A program made the translations under genes and the position numbers. From Rubidibacter lacunae KORDI 51-2 (lineage in GTDB: Bacteria > Cyanobacteriota > Cyanobacteriia > Cyanobacteriales > Rubidibacteraceae): a stretch of DNA of 64,000 nt. The DNA is taken from NCBI RefSeq assembly GCF_000473895.1, contig NZ_ASSJ01000031.1, positions 1-64,000 of the forward strand, given 5' to 3'. The notes beneath the pieces were generated by a model. It saw only the letters and a list, made by a program, of their open reading frames with translations, searched no databases and had not been told where the DNA came from. Each line of letters opens with the position of its first letter. Position 1 is the first letter of the stretch. Positions 12,383 to 34,785 of the stretch are shown in pieces.

Positions 12383-12861
12383 GCGCCCTTACTTACGGAG
12401 GACACATAGCAACGATACGTGCGCGAGCGCAAGCCCTTATGGAATTCTTGCAGCTACGAGAAACCGAGCCGGCAAAGTGAGTTTGTCGCTGAAGAGATCC
12501 TACAAAAGCCGATGCCGAAACGGCAGCAGGGTTTGTTGCAAATCGAACTTGGGTAAACAACTACACTTGCAGTGGGGGCGCAGCGCGGGATGCTAGTGCT
12601 CTCCAAGCTGTGCTGCATTGTCGGCGATCGCCTCCCCGTTCTCTATCTGGTTAGGGTGCTAAAGCAACGTTTTCCGCGTGATGAAACCAGGAAGATTGCC
12701 AAAGATTCGATATAGCTTCGAATGGGGGCATCCAGATTCTCTTGCCGTTGAATCTAGCATCACGCCGCAATGCTAGTAGGTTCACTGTTCGGGAAAAGCT
12801 TTAGCTAGCCTAGCTTAAGCCGGTAATACTAAATCCGGGACAATGTGATGCGAGTAGTGAG
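12383..12861. other. Gene-free stretch before the IS256 element
   Basis: About 480 bases after gltX. No ORF with homology, no repeat shared with other parts of the window. The IS256 left inverted repeat begins at its right edge. Confidence 0.45.
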
Positions 12862-14183
12862 CCTGTAAATGTTTTTTGTGTAAGCGGTCAGAGAGATAAC
12901 CCAATAGGAGACCGCAACCCATGCCCAGACGCGAGTCAGAACCCTCCGAAGCCGACCAGCTTCTCAACCAACTCCTGCAGCATTACTCCGGTCCCTAGCA
13001 AATCCTCGGCGAGCATGGGCTGCTCAAACAGCTCACCACCCGTTTGGTCGAACCCGCCCTCCAAGGCGAATTGACCCACCACCTCTAGCAGCAGGCTGCC
13101 GATCCCAATGCCCTGCCCAACAGTCGCAACGGCGACTCGCGCCAAACCGTCCACAGCAACCAAGGCAGCCTCGAGCTGCAGATTCCGCGCGACCGTCGCA
13201 GCGAATTCACGCCCGTCCTCGTGCCTAAAGGTCAACGTTGCCTAGCGGGCATAGACGAGAAGATTCTGGCACTCTCCGCCCGTGGGAGCAGCACCCAGAC
13301 CTTCAGGCACAACTGCGCGACCTCTATGGTGTGGACATCTCCCCGAGCTGGTCAGTCAGGTCACCTATACCGTGCTGGCCGAGCTGCGCCAGTGACACTC
13401 TCGCCCGCTAGCGGCAATCTACCCAATTGTCTGGCTCGATGCCCTGCGGGTGAAAGTCCGCCAACCAGGACGAGCGGGTGCAGTCGGTGTCGATTTATCT
13501 GGGGCTGGGGGTGACCCTGGATGGGCAGATGGAAGTGCTAGGGTGTGGCTGTCGCCGAACGGGTGCGCCAAGTTCTGGTTGTCGGTGTTGAGGGACCTGA
13601 AGAACCGGGGAGGGGAGCGCATCTTCATCACCTGCGTCGATGAGCTGAGCGCGTTTTCCGAGGCGATCGCCGCGACATTGCTCGAGGCCGGGGTGCAACT
13701 GTGTCTGGTGCCCAGGTGTGCAACTCGCTGCATTACGTTGGCTGGAAGCAGCGCAAGACCCCCAGCAGCGGACCTGAAAGCGATTTACCGCGCGGCGACG
13801 GTAGCTGTCGCCGAGGATGCGCTAGCAGAGTTCGCCGAGAAGTGGGATCCCACCGACCCGACCATCAGCGCGATGTAATTGCGGCACTGGGAGCAAGTCA
13901 TCTCGTTCTTCGATTACCCGCCAGAAATCCGGCGAGTGATTGACACGACCAACGCGTTTGAATCGCCGAACGACTCGTTGCGGAAGGTATTGAAGACCAA
14001 GGGGTCATTTCCGTCAGAGGCAGCAGTCTTCAAGTTGCTCTACCTAGCGCTGGAGAAGATTGACGATAAATGGACGATGCCACTGGCGAACTGGAAGGTA
14101 GTGCTAGCGCGATTTGCCATCGAGCATCCCGAGTGCTTCACCGACTGAGGTCTACTTGCTTACACAAAAAACTTGACACCCCC
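12862..14183 (+). mobile_element. Decayed IS256-family insertion sequence
   Basis: About 1.32 kb, the usual IS256-family size. The ends are inverted: the 15 bases GTTTTTTGTGTAAGC at 12871-12885 recur as their complement at 14158-14172, and the match extends outwards imperfectly (TGTAAAT/TGTCAA), giving terminal repeats of about 25 bases. Inside is one transposase gene with several stops and frameshifts. The copy is near full length, which makes it a reference for the relic at 32.5-33.0 kb. It cannot make an active transposase. Confidence 0.85.
12921..14148 (+). pseudogene. IS256-family (Mutator-type) transposase, inactivated
   Basis: ATG at 12921 opens MPRRESEPSEADQLLNQLLQ. In-frame TAG codons fall at 12996 and 13086, and a TAA at 13876. 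Frameshifts occur near 13290-13450 and 13700. Pieced together across frames, the family landmarks are present: ARGSSTQ..., YGVDISP, AAIYPIVWLDALRVKVR, KFWLSVLRDLKNRG..FITCVD, ADLKAIYRAAT, RRVIDTTNAFES, LRKVLKTKGSFPSEAAVFKLLYLAL and WTMPLANWKVVLARFAIEHP. These include the DDE-region segments of the family. The many independent lesions show age rather than a sequencing slip. Confidence 0.9.
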
Positions 14184-14330
14184 TCATCGAGCCCTCCTTG
14201 TTCTTTCTTCGCAAACACCAGCTTTTGTCCAAAGTCCAGATCGAATCGGTTCCCCCACAGGGCAGGGATCGATCGCATCGGGGTCAACCTATCCTGTGGT
14301 CTAACATCCGGGCGAGCTGACTCGACCTAC

Positions 14331-14500
14331 CTAGCCTGGATTATTCACGAACTCTTATGCCGAGACCTTAAACCTTTTGCCGTGCAAGGCTTGCAGGCTT
14401 TTTTTTCTCAATGACAGTGCTTTCTATACACGCAGATTGGAGCCTATTCAGAGCAAGGGTTTGAGGCTGCGTCAAAATTTTCGTGAATAATCCAGTCTAG
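14331..14500 (+). mobile_element. Family 1 MITE, copy 1 (CTAG-flanked)
   Basis: About 170 bases. Both ends read CTAG followed by CCTGGATTATTCACGAA (left) or, on the opposite strand, ACTGGATTATTCACGAA, so 20 of 21 terminal bases are inverted. The flanking CTAG may be a 4-base target duplication. The interior, including the GCAAGGCTTGCAGGC hairpin followed by a T run, is shared with copies at 26613-26781 and 32648-32815. There is no coding capacity. The ends resemble those of IS1380- or IS5-type elements; the autonomous partner is not in this window. Confidence 0.85.
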
Positions 14501-14799
14501 ATCGCGTTTTCTGGCTAAGAAAGCCTAAACCCCTTACAAAACTGTTGGCAATCTTCGGAAATAACGGGCTCTGTCTACCCAGAAGGTGAACGAAAACCTA
14601 TGCTTAACGGTTGGCGCTGTCGTTCCAGCTTCTATCGCTAGCAATCGACTTAAACTTTTACCAAACTTGGTATTGCGAGGAGCAGCTTATCTAGAACTCA
14701 TCTTAGATCGTTGCTCCTCGGGCAATAACCGTTGCCGAATTGCAACCGCCTGGGCGATCCCGCCAGGCAGACCGTTGGGGAGAGTGCGATGCGATCGGG

Positions 14800-26612: not shown

Positions 26613-26781
26613 CTAGCCTGGATTATTCATGAACTCTTCTGCGGAGACCCTAAACCTTTTGCCGTAAAAGGCTTGCAGACTTTTTCGCTCAATGAAAGTG
26701 CGTTTCCATACACGTAAATGGAGCCTAGTCAGAGCAAGGTTTTGAGGTTTCGTCAAAATCTTCGTGAATAGCTTGCTTTAG
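26613..26781 (+). mobile_element. Family 1 MITE, copy 2
   Basis: About 169 bases, same orientation as the copy at 14331-14500 and colinear with it. The left end is CTAGCCTGGATTATTCATGAA. The right end is decayed (its complement reads CTAAAGCAAGCTATTCACGAA), so only the inner part of the terminal repeat still matches. No open frame. Confidence 0.8.
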
Positions 26782-31472: not shown

Positions 31473-32390
31473 ATGAACTTGCCCGACATGAATGAGCCCG
31501 AGACCCACTTGCCGGGAACGTTGTATCTGGTCGCGACGCCGATCGGGAACTTGGATGACATGACCTTTCGTGCAGTACGCGTGTTGCAAACCGCAGATCT
31601 GATTGCAGCCGAGGATACGCGCCGAACCGGCAAGCTCCTGCAGCACTTCGCGATCGCTACGCCGCAAACGAGCTACCACGAGCACAACCGCCGCCAACGC
31701 GCTGCCGAGTTGGTAGATCGCCTGCTAGCAGGTGCCAACATCGCACTCGTCACCGATGCCGGGATGCCGGGAATTTCCGATCCGGGAAGCGAGCTGGCTG
31801 CGGCTTGCGCCGCTGCCGGGATTCCCGTCGTACCCGTTCCCGGAGCCACTGCCGCGATCGCCGCGATCGCCGCCTCGGGATTACCGGCGGGTCGCTTCGC
31901 GTTTGAGGGCTTTCTGCCAACCAAGCACAAGGACCGTCAGGCGCGTCTGCAATCACTCGCAACCGAACCCCGCACGATCGCCCTTTACGAAGCACCGCAT
32001 CGCTTGCTAACGACACTTCAGGATCTGGCGGCTGCCCTAGGCGGCGATCGCGCGGTCGTCCTCGCCCGCGAACTGACCAAACTGCACGAGGAGTTCGCCC
32101 ACCTTACGCTCGGTGAGGCGATCGCCTGCTACCAAACGCGCCAGCCCAAAGGCGAATTCGTGTTGGTGTTAGCCGGTGCGACGTGCGATCGCCAAATCGA
32201 CCTCACGCCCGACGCGCTGCGTGCCGAACTCCAAGATGCGCTCGAGCGGGGATTGACGCGATCGCAAGCCTGCCGGGAGCTTGCAAACCTAACCGGACTG
32301 CCGCGCCGCGACCTCTACCAACTTGCCCTCGACCTCGACGGGAGCGTACCCGACGCCGGAAAAGCGGACGGCGATCGGTCCAGCCGCTGA
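31473..32390 (+). CDS. rsmI: 16S rRNA (cytidine(1402)-2'-O)-methyltransferase
   Basis: SAM-dependent methylation of the 2'-O of C1402 in 16S rRNA, in the decoding centre. 305 residues from 31473 (an internal ATG at 31488 is equally possible). Tetrapyrrole-methylase fold: GTLYLVATPIGNLDDMTFRAV near the N-terminus, EDTRRTGKLLQHF, and TDAGMPGISDPG form the family signatures. The C-terminal helix-turn (LTRSQACRELANLTGLPRRDLYQLAL) is the RsmI-specific extension. Complete. Confidence 0.95.
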   Translation: MNLPDMNEPETHLPGTLYLVATPIGNLDDMTFRAVRVLQTADLIAAEDTRRTGKLLQHFAIATPQTSYHEHNRRQRAAELVDRLLAGANIALVTDAGMPGISDPGSELAAACAAAGIPVVPVPGATAAIAAIAASGLPAGRFAFEGFLPTKHKDRQARLQSLATEPRTIALYEAPHRLLTTLQDLAAALGGDRAVVLARELTKLHEEFAHLTLGEAIACYQTRQPKGEFVLVLAGATCDRQIDLTPDALRAELQDALERGLTRSQACRELANLTGLPRRDLYQLALDLDGSVPDAGKADGDRSSR

Positions 32391-32483
32391 AGCGAACCGT
32401 CACCTAAATCGGTGTGGACAGTGGAAACCAGACATTGCCGGCGATCGCTCCCCATCGGGGAGAGTGTCAAGTATTTTATGTAA

Positions 32484-32583
32484 TACCAACTTTAGGAAGT
32501 TCCGCGACAGATGGCAGATTGGGATCCTTTACTCCCAGGAATTGTTTGCCTCATCTGTCGTAGGCATTGTGAAAATTGGTATA
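32484..32583. mobile_element. Family 3 short element (TA-flanked), inside the IS256 relic
   Basis: About 100 bases with inverted ends: ATACCAACTTTAGG on the left and, on the other strand, ATACCAATTTTCAC. Comparison with the fuller IS256 copy shows that the sequence GCT-TACACAAAA is split here, with the element between GCTTA and TACATAAAA, which gives a TA target duplication. TA duplication is typical of IS630/Tc1-mariner-type mobility. No open frame and no other clear copy in the window. Confidence 0.65.
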
Positions 32584-32647
32584 AGCTTCGCTTTCAGTCT
32601 GTGAAACAGTCGGGCTACTCAATGGATAAGCGCGCCAGCGCAGCCTT

Positions 32648-32815
32648 CTAGCCAGGAATATTCACGAAAATTTGCGAAGCCTCAAACCCTTGCTCTGACT
32701 AGGCTCTAATCTACGTGTATAGAAACGTACTGTCATTGAGCGAAAAAGTCTGCAAGCCTTGCAAGGCAAAAGGTTTAGGGTCTCCGCATAAGAGTTCTTG
32801 AATAATCCAGGCTAG
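32648..32815 (-). mobile_element. Family 1 MITE, copy 3, inside the IS256 relic
   Basis: About 168 bases in reverse orientation to the copies at 14331 and 26613. Ends are CTAGCCAGGAATATTCACGAA and, on the minus strand, CTAGCCTGGATTATTCAAGAA, both carrying CTAG. On one side the transposase reads ...PVYVAL, on the other ...LARLSIE, so the element sits in the transposase gene; about 45 bases of the target are missing compared with the fuller copy. Confidence 0.85.
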
Positions 32816-33045
32816 CGCTACGTACACCGGTTTCGTTACTGCCTCCTCTGATGGGTAAGACCCCTTCGTTTTCATCACCTTCGCTTAAGAATCTCAACTC
32901 GATTTGGCATCCTTAGGGTGATGCACTTAAGACTCTTCAGGCTGAGATTCTCTCACATCAGGTCTGTGAGCCTTTATCTCCGCCTTTAAGTCAGTACCGT
33001 TCATCCTACGTCTTCTCTGCTGTAAGAAGATCTGAACGTACTCCA

Positions 33046-33282
33046 GGGTAAAAACCAGAAGGCAAGAAACGACCAGAAATCATCGATCTCGCGCGTGCAC
33101 TATTCCTACGCCTTTAACTAGAGCTGCCTAACCACACGCGTCATTGCGCAACGATTTTCCGTGCTGAATGACTGCTCCGCAAACTCCAACACTGAGAGAT
33201 TATCAGTCTTGCCCGATCCCCACAAATATAGGTCGACCACACTCGCCGTTGCTTAGCTGCAAACGCTGAGATGTTGGTGATG
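33046..33282. other. Spacer between IS256 relic and radA
   Basis: About 240 bases downstream of the radA stop. No gene or repeat that I can identify; possibly more of the eroded IS256 copy beyond recognition. Confidence 0.35.
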
Positions 33283-34785
33283 CTAATGCGATTTATCGGG
33301 GACTTCGTCCTCGGTTGATGGATTTGCGTGGGTATGGGTTGGAATTGCCGCGACGATCGCGTCGATCGCTCGCCCCACAGGAACGACTTCGATCCCAATG
33401 TCGGCAGGCAACTCGTTACCGATTGGGACGATCGCGCGATCGAAGCCCAATTTGGCGGCCTCGCGCAGGCGCAATTCGAGTTGCGGTACTCGGCGTACCT
33501 GGCCGCCCAAGCCTACTTCGCCGATCAGGACCGAGCGCGGATCGACCAAGCGATCGCGAAAGCTCGCCACCACTGCAACGGCAATGCCCAAATCTGCAGC
33601 CGGTTCTTCGACGCCCAGTCCGCCAGCCGTCGCCACGTAGGCATCGAGCTTGGAAAGCGGAATACCGACGCGCTTTTCGAGAACGGCAAGGATCTGCTGC
33701 AAGCGATTGAAGCTGACGCCAGTCGTCGCGCGGCGCGGCGACGAATAGCTCGTCGGACTGACCAACGCTTGCAACTCCACGACCAGCGGACGCGTCCCCT
33801 CGCAAGCCACCACCGTTGCCGTGCCGGGTGCGGCTTCGTCGCGGCTGCCCAGGAACAACGCCGACGGGTTTTCCACCTCCCGCAAACCGCTATCTACCAT
33901 CTCGAAGACGCCGACCTCATGGGTAGCACCAAAGCGGTTTTTGACTGCTCGCAGCAGTCGATGAGAGGCAAAGCGATCGCCTTCACAATACAGCACTGTA
34001 TCGACCAAGTGCTCCAGAACGCGCGGTCCGGCCAGCGAGCCTTCCTTGGTGACGTGCCCGACGATCATCAAGGTTATGTTCGCGCGTTTGGCAACTTGCA
34101 TTAACGCTGAGGTACATTCGCGCACCTGCGATACCGATCCTGGAGCAGAGGATAGCGCTGCGTAATAAAGTGTTTGGATGCTATCGATGACGGCAACCCG
34201 TGGTCGCAGAGCTTCGAGCTCGCGGAGAATGGCCTCGAGGTCCGTTTCCGCCAAGATATACAGGTTCTCCGAGACGGGTGTTCGCGCAGTGACTGCTGTT
34301 GATGCAGTCGGTTGCGTAGTTGTTACGCCCAGGCGCGTCGCTCTTAGTTTGATCTGATGGGCAGACTCCTCCGCAGCTACGTAAAGGGTGCGGTGCTCGC
34401 GCGCCACGCGATCGGCAACTTGCAATAGCAGCGTTGACTTGCCGATTCCCGGATCGCCGCCGAGCAACACTAGCGAGCCCGGTACGATGCCACCACCCAA
34501 GACGCGGTCGAATTCTCCGAATCCGGACGGAAACCGAGACAGCGCGCAGTTGCGGACGTCGGCAAGCTGAATAGCGGCTAGTAAGTATGGCTCGCGTTCG
34601 CCGCTCGAAACGGGAGCGCGCGCGGAAATTGGCTCCCGACCGGGTCGGGAGGTAGTGCTAGTTGTGGAAACCTGCACCTCTTCCTGCAGCGTACCGAAAG
34701 TATTGCACGTCGGACATTTCCCGAACCACTGCCGGTGTTCGGCTCCGCAGGCATTGCAGACAAAGACAGTGCGGGGTTTCGCCAT
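33283..34785 (-). CDS. radA: DNA repair protein RadA (Sms)
   Basis: RadA is a RecA-related hexameric helicase that promotes branch migration in recombinational repair and transformation. The ATG at 34785 gives 500 residues: a C4 zinc finger at Cys10, Cys13, Cys24 and Cys27, the Walker A GGDPGIGKSTLLLQ near residue 100, the RadA-specific KNRFGATHEVGVFEM, and the C-terminal Lon-like domain (VATAGGLGVEEPAADLGIAVAV...GEVGLGGQVRRV). The open frame upstream to 34845 lacks homology. It could cooperate with comEC during DNA uptake, though the two are 26 kb apart. Divergent from rpaB. Confidence 0.96.
   Translation of the reverse strand: MAKPRTVFVCNACGAEHRQWFGKCPTCNTFGTLQEEVQVSTTSTTSRPGREPISARAPVSSGEREPYLLAAIQLADVRNCALSRFPSGFGEFDRVLGGGIVPGSLVLLGGDPGIGKSTLLLQVADRVAREHRTLYVAAEESAHQIKLRATRLGVTTTQPTASTAVTARTPVSENLYILAETDLEAILRELEALRPRVAVIDSIQTLYYAALSSAPGSVSQVRECTSALMQVAKRANITLMIVGHVTKEGSLAGPRVLEHLVDTVLYCEGDRFASHRLLRAVKNRFGATHEVGVFEMVDSGLREVENPSALFLGSRDEAAPGTATVVACEGTRPLVVELQALVSPTSYSSPRRATTGVSFNRLQQILAVLEKRVGIPLSKLDAYVATAGGLGVEEPAADLGIAVAVVASFRDRLVDPRSVLIGEVGLGGQVRRVPQLELRLREAAKLGFDRAIVPIGNELPADIGIEVVPVGRAIDAIVAAIPTHTHANPSTEDEVPDKSH

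Follow-up and report, generated by a model that had tools for sequence, protein, structure and literature searches.

How did the 3' end of a decayed IS256-family insertion sequence come to be interrupted by two unrelated short elements, and which transposases might have placed them there? The window, the whole 64,000-nucleotide stretch of DNA that was analysed, is contig C31 of a genome of 4.15 Mb in 99 contigs. The original prediction held that two different MITEs had inserted into one IS256 relic at 32461-33045. Both inserts, termed family A and family B here, indeed proved to be multi-copy elements (at least 40 and at least 39 copies, respectively) that separate colinear IS256 sequence. It is very probable that an old IS256 3' end was hit separately by an IS1380-type and an IS630-type MITE. 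The features of the locus are collected in Table 1.

Table 1. Coordinates, strand and supporting evidence for the features of the nested locus.
Feature	Position	Strand	Evidence
IS256 relic, 3' terminal end (AGAGTGTCAAGTATTTTATGTAA)	32461..32483	-	20/23 to C81:62.9-64.2 kb sibling end; also matches window copy end 14161-14180
Left TAA of family B 3-bp target duplication	32481..32483		TAA on both sides
Family B MITE, 98 bp, TIR TACCAA...GACAGATG, hairpin-forming, non-coding	32484..32581	+	At least 39 copies, best 96% identical (C17:119397)
Right TAA of family B duplication; also IS256 AAGCTTA on other strand	32582..32584		TAA on both sides
IS256 relic, C-terminal transposase codons (LARLSIE..., stop) and 3' tail	32582..32651	-	80% to same sibling over 76 bp; translation
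CTAG flank of family A, left on + strand; siblings have CTGG	32648..32651		Alignment to siblings
Family A MITE, 160 bp, TIR CCTGGATTATTCACGAA	32652..32811	+	At least 40 copies, 94% to best; TIR common to IS1380-family elements
CTAG flank of family A, right on + strand; CTAG also in sibling IS256 here	32812..32815		Alignment to siblings
IS256 relic, transposase segment KVMKTKG...PVYVAL	32812..32882	-	83% to same sibling over 71 bp
Possible continuation of the decayed IS256 (NxVEIL motif); borderline	32883..32930	-	12/300 shuffles of 32884-32960 score as high

About 20 IS256 copies and pieces were detected in the genome by searches with Pfam PF00872 and the IS256 3' end. The nearest sibling of the relic is the copy at C81:62.9-64.2 kb, which matches PF00872 (Transposase_mut) in three stretches and aligns with the relic on either side of family A and at the terminus (identities in Table 1). 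Colinearity with siblings that bear PF00872 places the relic in the IS256 family. The relic lacks the pair of terminal repeats and the target duplication of a complete element and is a fragment holding only the 3' end of an IS256; its 5' part is gone or unrecognisable past ~32930. The proposed IS256 homology out to 33045 was not borne out. The score of 32884-32960 against the C81 sibling is borderline, 32930-33045 scored no better against IS256 than shuffled sequence, and a genome search with 32880-33320 returned no second copy. Because the match fades past ~32882 and the shuffles score as they do, we regard the relic as a 3' stump that is secure from 32461 to ~32882.

The same sibling supplies the empty site for both inserts, and its alignment places them between contiguous IS256 positions. 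The window's own IS256 copy at 12862-14183, originally proposed as the fuller reference that would serve this purpose, did not do so: comparison of 32300-33300 with 12700-14600 by blastn aligned no more than 45 bp of the transposase part (78%) and a short piece at the terminus, apart from a MITE copy next to this IS. That MITE, at 14335-14496, is a family A element ~150 bp downstream of the IS256 sequence, and another lies at 26613-26770 in the window. Once family B and one of its duplicates are removed, the joined site matches the C81 sibling at 35 of 38 positions over equal length. The insertion next to the terminal repeat therefore stands, with two amendments: the element ends at 32581 and not at 32583, and the duplication is a 3-bp TNA (here TAA) in place of TA. 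Family A likewise splits the transposase between PVYVAL and LARLSIE as proposed, and the loss at this site is 37-41 bp where ~45 had been suggested. Relative to the sibling, 37 bp are missing (CTAG to CTGG) if the second CTAG is the target, and 41 bp if it is a duplicate; either way, the insertion was not perfectly clean. Genome searches with both inserts recovered repeat families with target duplications, and since these elements interrupt colinear IS256 sequence, the IS256 copy predates both, as had been claimed. This ordering concerns the IS256 copy and each insert; neither insert is nested in the other, and the order of A and B is not covered by it. The core of the original prediction is confirmed, and in kind the locus is ordinary mobile-element layering.

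Both families have the attributes of MITEs, being short and non-coding, with terminal inverted repeats (TIRs), many dispersed copies and a target duplication. For family A, the genome search yielded 63 candidates, at least 40 of which were scored as copies. These are mostly 160-163 bp long and bounded by CTAG, which flanked most of 30 copies at both ends. The window copy has the ends CCTGG/CCAGG, with one base changed at one end. Exceptions to the CTAG pattern (TTAG/TTAG in two copies, CTAA/CTAA in one) have unrelated outer flanks, which identifies YTAR as a 4-bp target duplication and not element sequence. The flanking 4-mers matched in most of the 38 copies inspected; in several copies the two YTAR-like 4-mers differ, so that a reading of the duplication as TA within CTAG retains some weight.

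The terminal repeat of family A is also found at the ends of IS1380-family genes. Three gene pieces matching PF13701 end in this repeat followed by CTAG or CTAA: those at C81:186445-187114 and C3:1-380 end in CTCATGAATAATCCAGG plus CTAG, and a piece on C59 ends in TTCGTGAATAATTCAGG plus CTAA. Family A therefore shares its TIR and target with a resident IS1380 element. The C81 fragment, the longest piece, matches the NCBIfam IS1380 model (NF033539) with 5e-51, slightly under the curated cut-off on account of its partial length, and it exceeds the Pfam PF13701 cut-off. No intact IS1380 gene was found in the assembly, and the fragments break off where contigs end, as is usual for collapsed repeats. 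Thus, IS1380-family elements (PF13701, NF033539) and family A have the terminal repeat and the CTAG/YTAR target in common and differ in that the former encode a transposase, here in pieces at contig ends, whereas family A encodes nothing. At C81:186.2 kb, an IS1380-family element is inserted in a CTAG within a family A MITE that has the same ends.

For family B, a clean TA duplication of the classical IS630/Tc1/mariner type was considered and ruled out. Of 30 copies, 17 carry the same TNA (TGA, TAA, TTA or TCA) on either side; even on the assumption that all sites are TNA through target preference, this has P=2e-4. A search with the family B TIR pattern also found the ends of DDE_3 (IS630) elements at C4:41504, C8:22228 and C46:23912, which adjoin PF13358 matches at C4:41110-41418, C8:22343-22489 and C46:24027-24200, respectively, and on C51 an IS630-like sequence runs into an end close to that of family B. 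The TIR of family B is therefore shared with DDE_3 elements. The IS630 copies nearest to family B in this genome have unlike flanks (TTA/TCA and TCA/TGA), which does not support current activity here. Exact IS630 ends were taken from multi-copy elements in three other genomes of the order. Elements in G094 have the ends TACCAATTT...GACAGAT and those in G275 have TACCA ends as in G094, with TNA duplicated in all three copies of each; elements in G002 have TATGAA ends and a 3-bp duplication in four of five copies. Overall, 10 of 11 IS630 copies have a 3-bp duplication, mostly TNA, and the G094 gene scores above the NCBIfam cut-off for IS630. Because the 3-bp duplication occurs both in the MITE copies and in the IS copies of these relatives, family B is assigned to a TNA-duplicating IS630 subgroup and kept apart from the TA type.

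This IS630 subgroup hence departs from the 2-bp TA rule of ISY100, a characterised cyanobacterial member of IS630 that targets and duplicates TA (PMC2170065). ISY100 and classical IS630 resemble the partner of family B in having a DDE_3 transposase and short TIRs, with cut-and-paste movement as the probable mode; in the subgroup matching family B, however, TNA is duplicated and TA forms the first bases of the element. Among the papers searched, none described a TNA duplication in IS630 or an IS1380 element with CTAG and a MITE.

Losses of IS256 sequence at family A elements are not confined to the relic. At C55:68.5-69.2 kb and C81:163.1-163.8 kb, both IS256 ends are present and the stretch from 381 (CTAG) to 1183 (CTAG) is replaced by a family A MITE; at the latter site the outermost MITE bases on the 381 side are changed or lost. 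The two MITEs have opposite orientations and the two IS256 copies share no derived changes, which gives no support to the copying of one composite IS256-MITE to both places. Independent origin is the simplest account of the absence of shared changes, and the two copies probably represent two independent events. At C41:47.0-47.7 kb, approximately IS256 364-960 is absent, and the junction (C41:47.3 kb) consists of TAATCCAGG, the last 9 bp of a family A element, beside the CTAG at 961. A rearranged IS256 at C81:48.9-49.4 kb also has a family A element next to its CTAG381 region. An internal IS256 deletion at C24:21328-21916 joins ~469 to 1165 and has no MITE at its junction. Together, four IS256 copies (the relic, C55, C81:163 kb and C41) show a loss ending at or in a family A element, which suggests recurrent MITE-associated deletion, by a mechanism that we infer. 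Deletions adjacent to ISs are known often to cause missing duplications (PMC11708052).

What could have produced the inserts and these gaps? That the inserts are native variable parts of an IS256 subfamily and not insertions is extremely improbable: the divergence of 17-20% between the relic and its best sibling would suit such a subfamily, but each sequence is present in tens of places outside IS256, bounded by ends and duplications of its own, and the sibling IS256 carries neither. The cause of the deletions is less clear-cut. They may have arisen by recombination between two family A MITEs at two CTAG sites of one IS256, leaving one MITE behind, a possibility that we hold less likely than not. 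It would explain the single MITE in place of the 381-1183 stretch at C55 and C81:163 kb, which probably arose separately, and positions at or close to each site have been used elsewhere, the CTAG381 region at C81:48.9 kb and a site ~8 bp from 1183 in the relic. However, none of the IS256 copies seen carried a pair of MITEs, the relic would have required such a pair 41 bp apart with one member at a site that is CTGG in siblings, and a crossover between MITEs would not give the 9-bp MITE end at C41.

A loss during transposition itself would account for the CTAG found at both ends in the relic and at C55 although the corresponding sibling sites lie apart. The ends of family A would then join two different YTAR sites, or the element would enter a broken end, and the intervening stretch would be lost; the reported movement of IS5 in E. 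coli with a deletion and without a duplication offers a precedent (PMC11708052). This process is not directly observed for family A, and matching 4-mers in most of the 38 copies indicate that concerted insertion is the rule, so we consider it a tentative explanation. A similarly doubtful one is that dead ISs later lost sequence for unrelated reasons and that the gaps touch a MITE by chance. The MITE-free deletion at C24 (~469 to 1165) shows that such losses occur, but chance contact accords poorly with four IS256 copies in which the loss ends at or inside family A. We are likewise rather sceptical of the broadest statement that could be made from these data, that family A is a recurrent IS-killing and IS-miniaturising element, repeatedly inactivating and shrinking IS256 by insertion coupled to CTAG-to-CTAG deletion, and that the IS630 subgroup behind family B at the same time uses TNA and not TA.

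The history that we propose for the locus returns to separate insertions into one dead IS. The region is most probably a truncated 3' remnant of an old IS256-family copy that received two non-autonomous elements independently of each other. Acting in trans, a transposase of the IS1380 family would have recognised the CCTGGATTATTCACGAA ends of family A and inserted it at YTAR (mostly CTAG) with duplication of 4 bp. An IS630-family transposase would have recognised the TACCAA...GACAGATG ends of family B and inserted it at TNA with duplication of 3 bp. The dead IS presumably tolerated both insertions, and the 37-41 bp missing beside family A may have disappeared in the course of insertion or through a deletion that followed next to the element. 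The nesting, the ends, the duplications, the copy numbers and the ends shared with the two transposase families are observed directly, whereas mobilisation in trans and the cause of the deletion are part of the proposed history.

What gives the finding its value is the precise definition of the element bounds, the assignment of a transposase family to each MITE and the recurrence of the deletions. One genome holds two multi-copy MITE families that are exactly bounded and for which both the transposase family and the target rule are identified, and a single IS relic permits the empty-site comparison for both. Family A elements recur where IS256 copies have suffered deletions, in two cases between the same pair of CTAG sites, which provides a small lead on how active ISs might be reduced to non-autonomous relics by MITEs. 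Searches of 59 other genomes of the family and order returned neither MITE family. A third MITE family of ~230 bp, with the ends GGGCTTGC.GAAAAAG / CTTTTTC.GCAAACCC and apparently a 6-bp duplication, was encountered in a family B MITE and in an IS256 copy (C79:127.8 kb and C8:67.6-67.9 kb).

MITEs within ISs and within each other are already known. In Streptococcus pneumoniae, RUP elements of ~100 bp have IS630-Spn1-like ends, number about a hundred copies and have been proposed to favour IS elements or their vicinity as targets, and BOX, RUP and SPRITE are inserted into one another (PMC3049150). Both RUP and family B are ~100-bp IS630-type MITEs with TIRs like those of a resident IS630. By description, family B differs from RUP in duplicating TNA, in having its own TIRs (TACCAA...GACAGATG) and in its host group. 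Closer to this host, GCGATCGC is frequent in the genome, from which we infer that it belongs to the same phylum as the hosts of Nezha. Nezha and other cyanobacterial MITEs, with an ISNpu3-like partner, are small non-coding elements with TIRs, as are families A and B (cited in PMC10969869 and PMC3049150).
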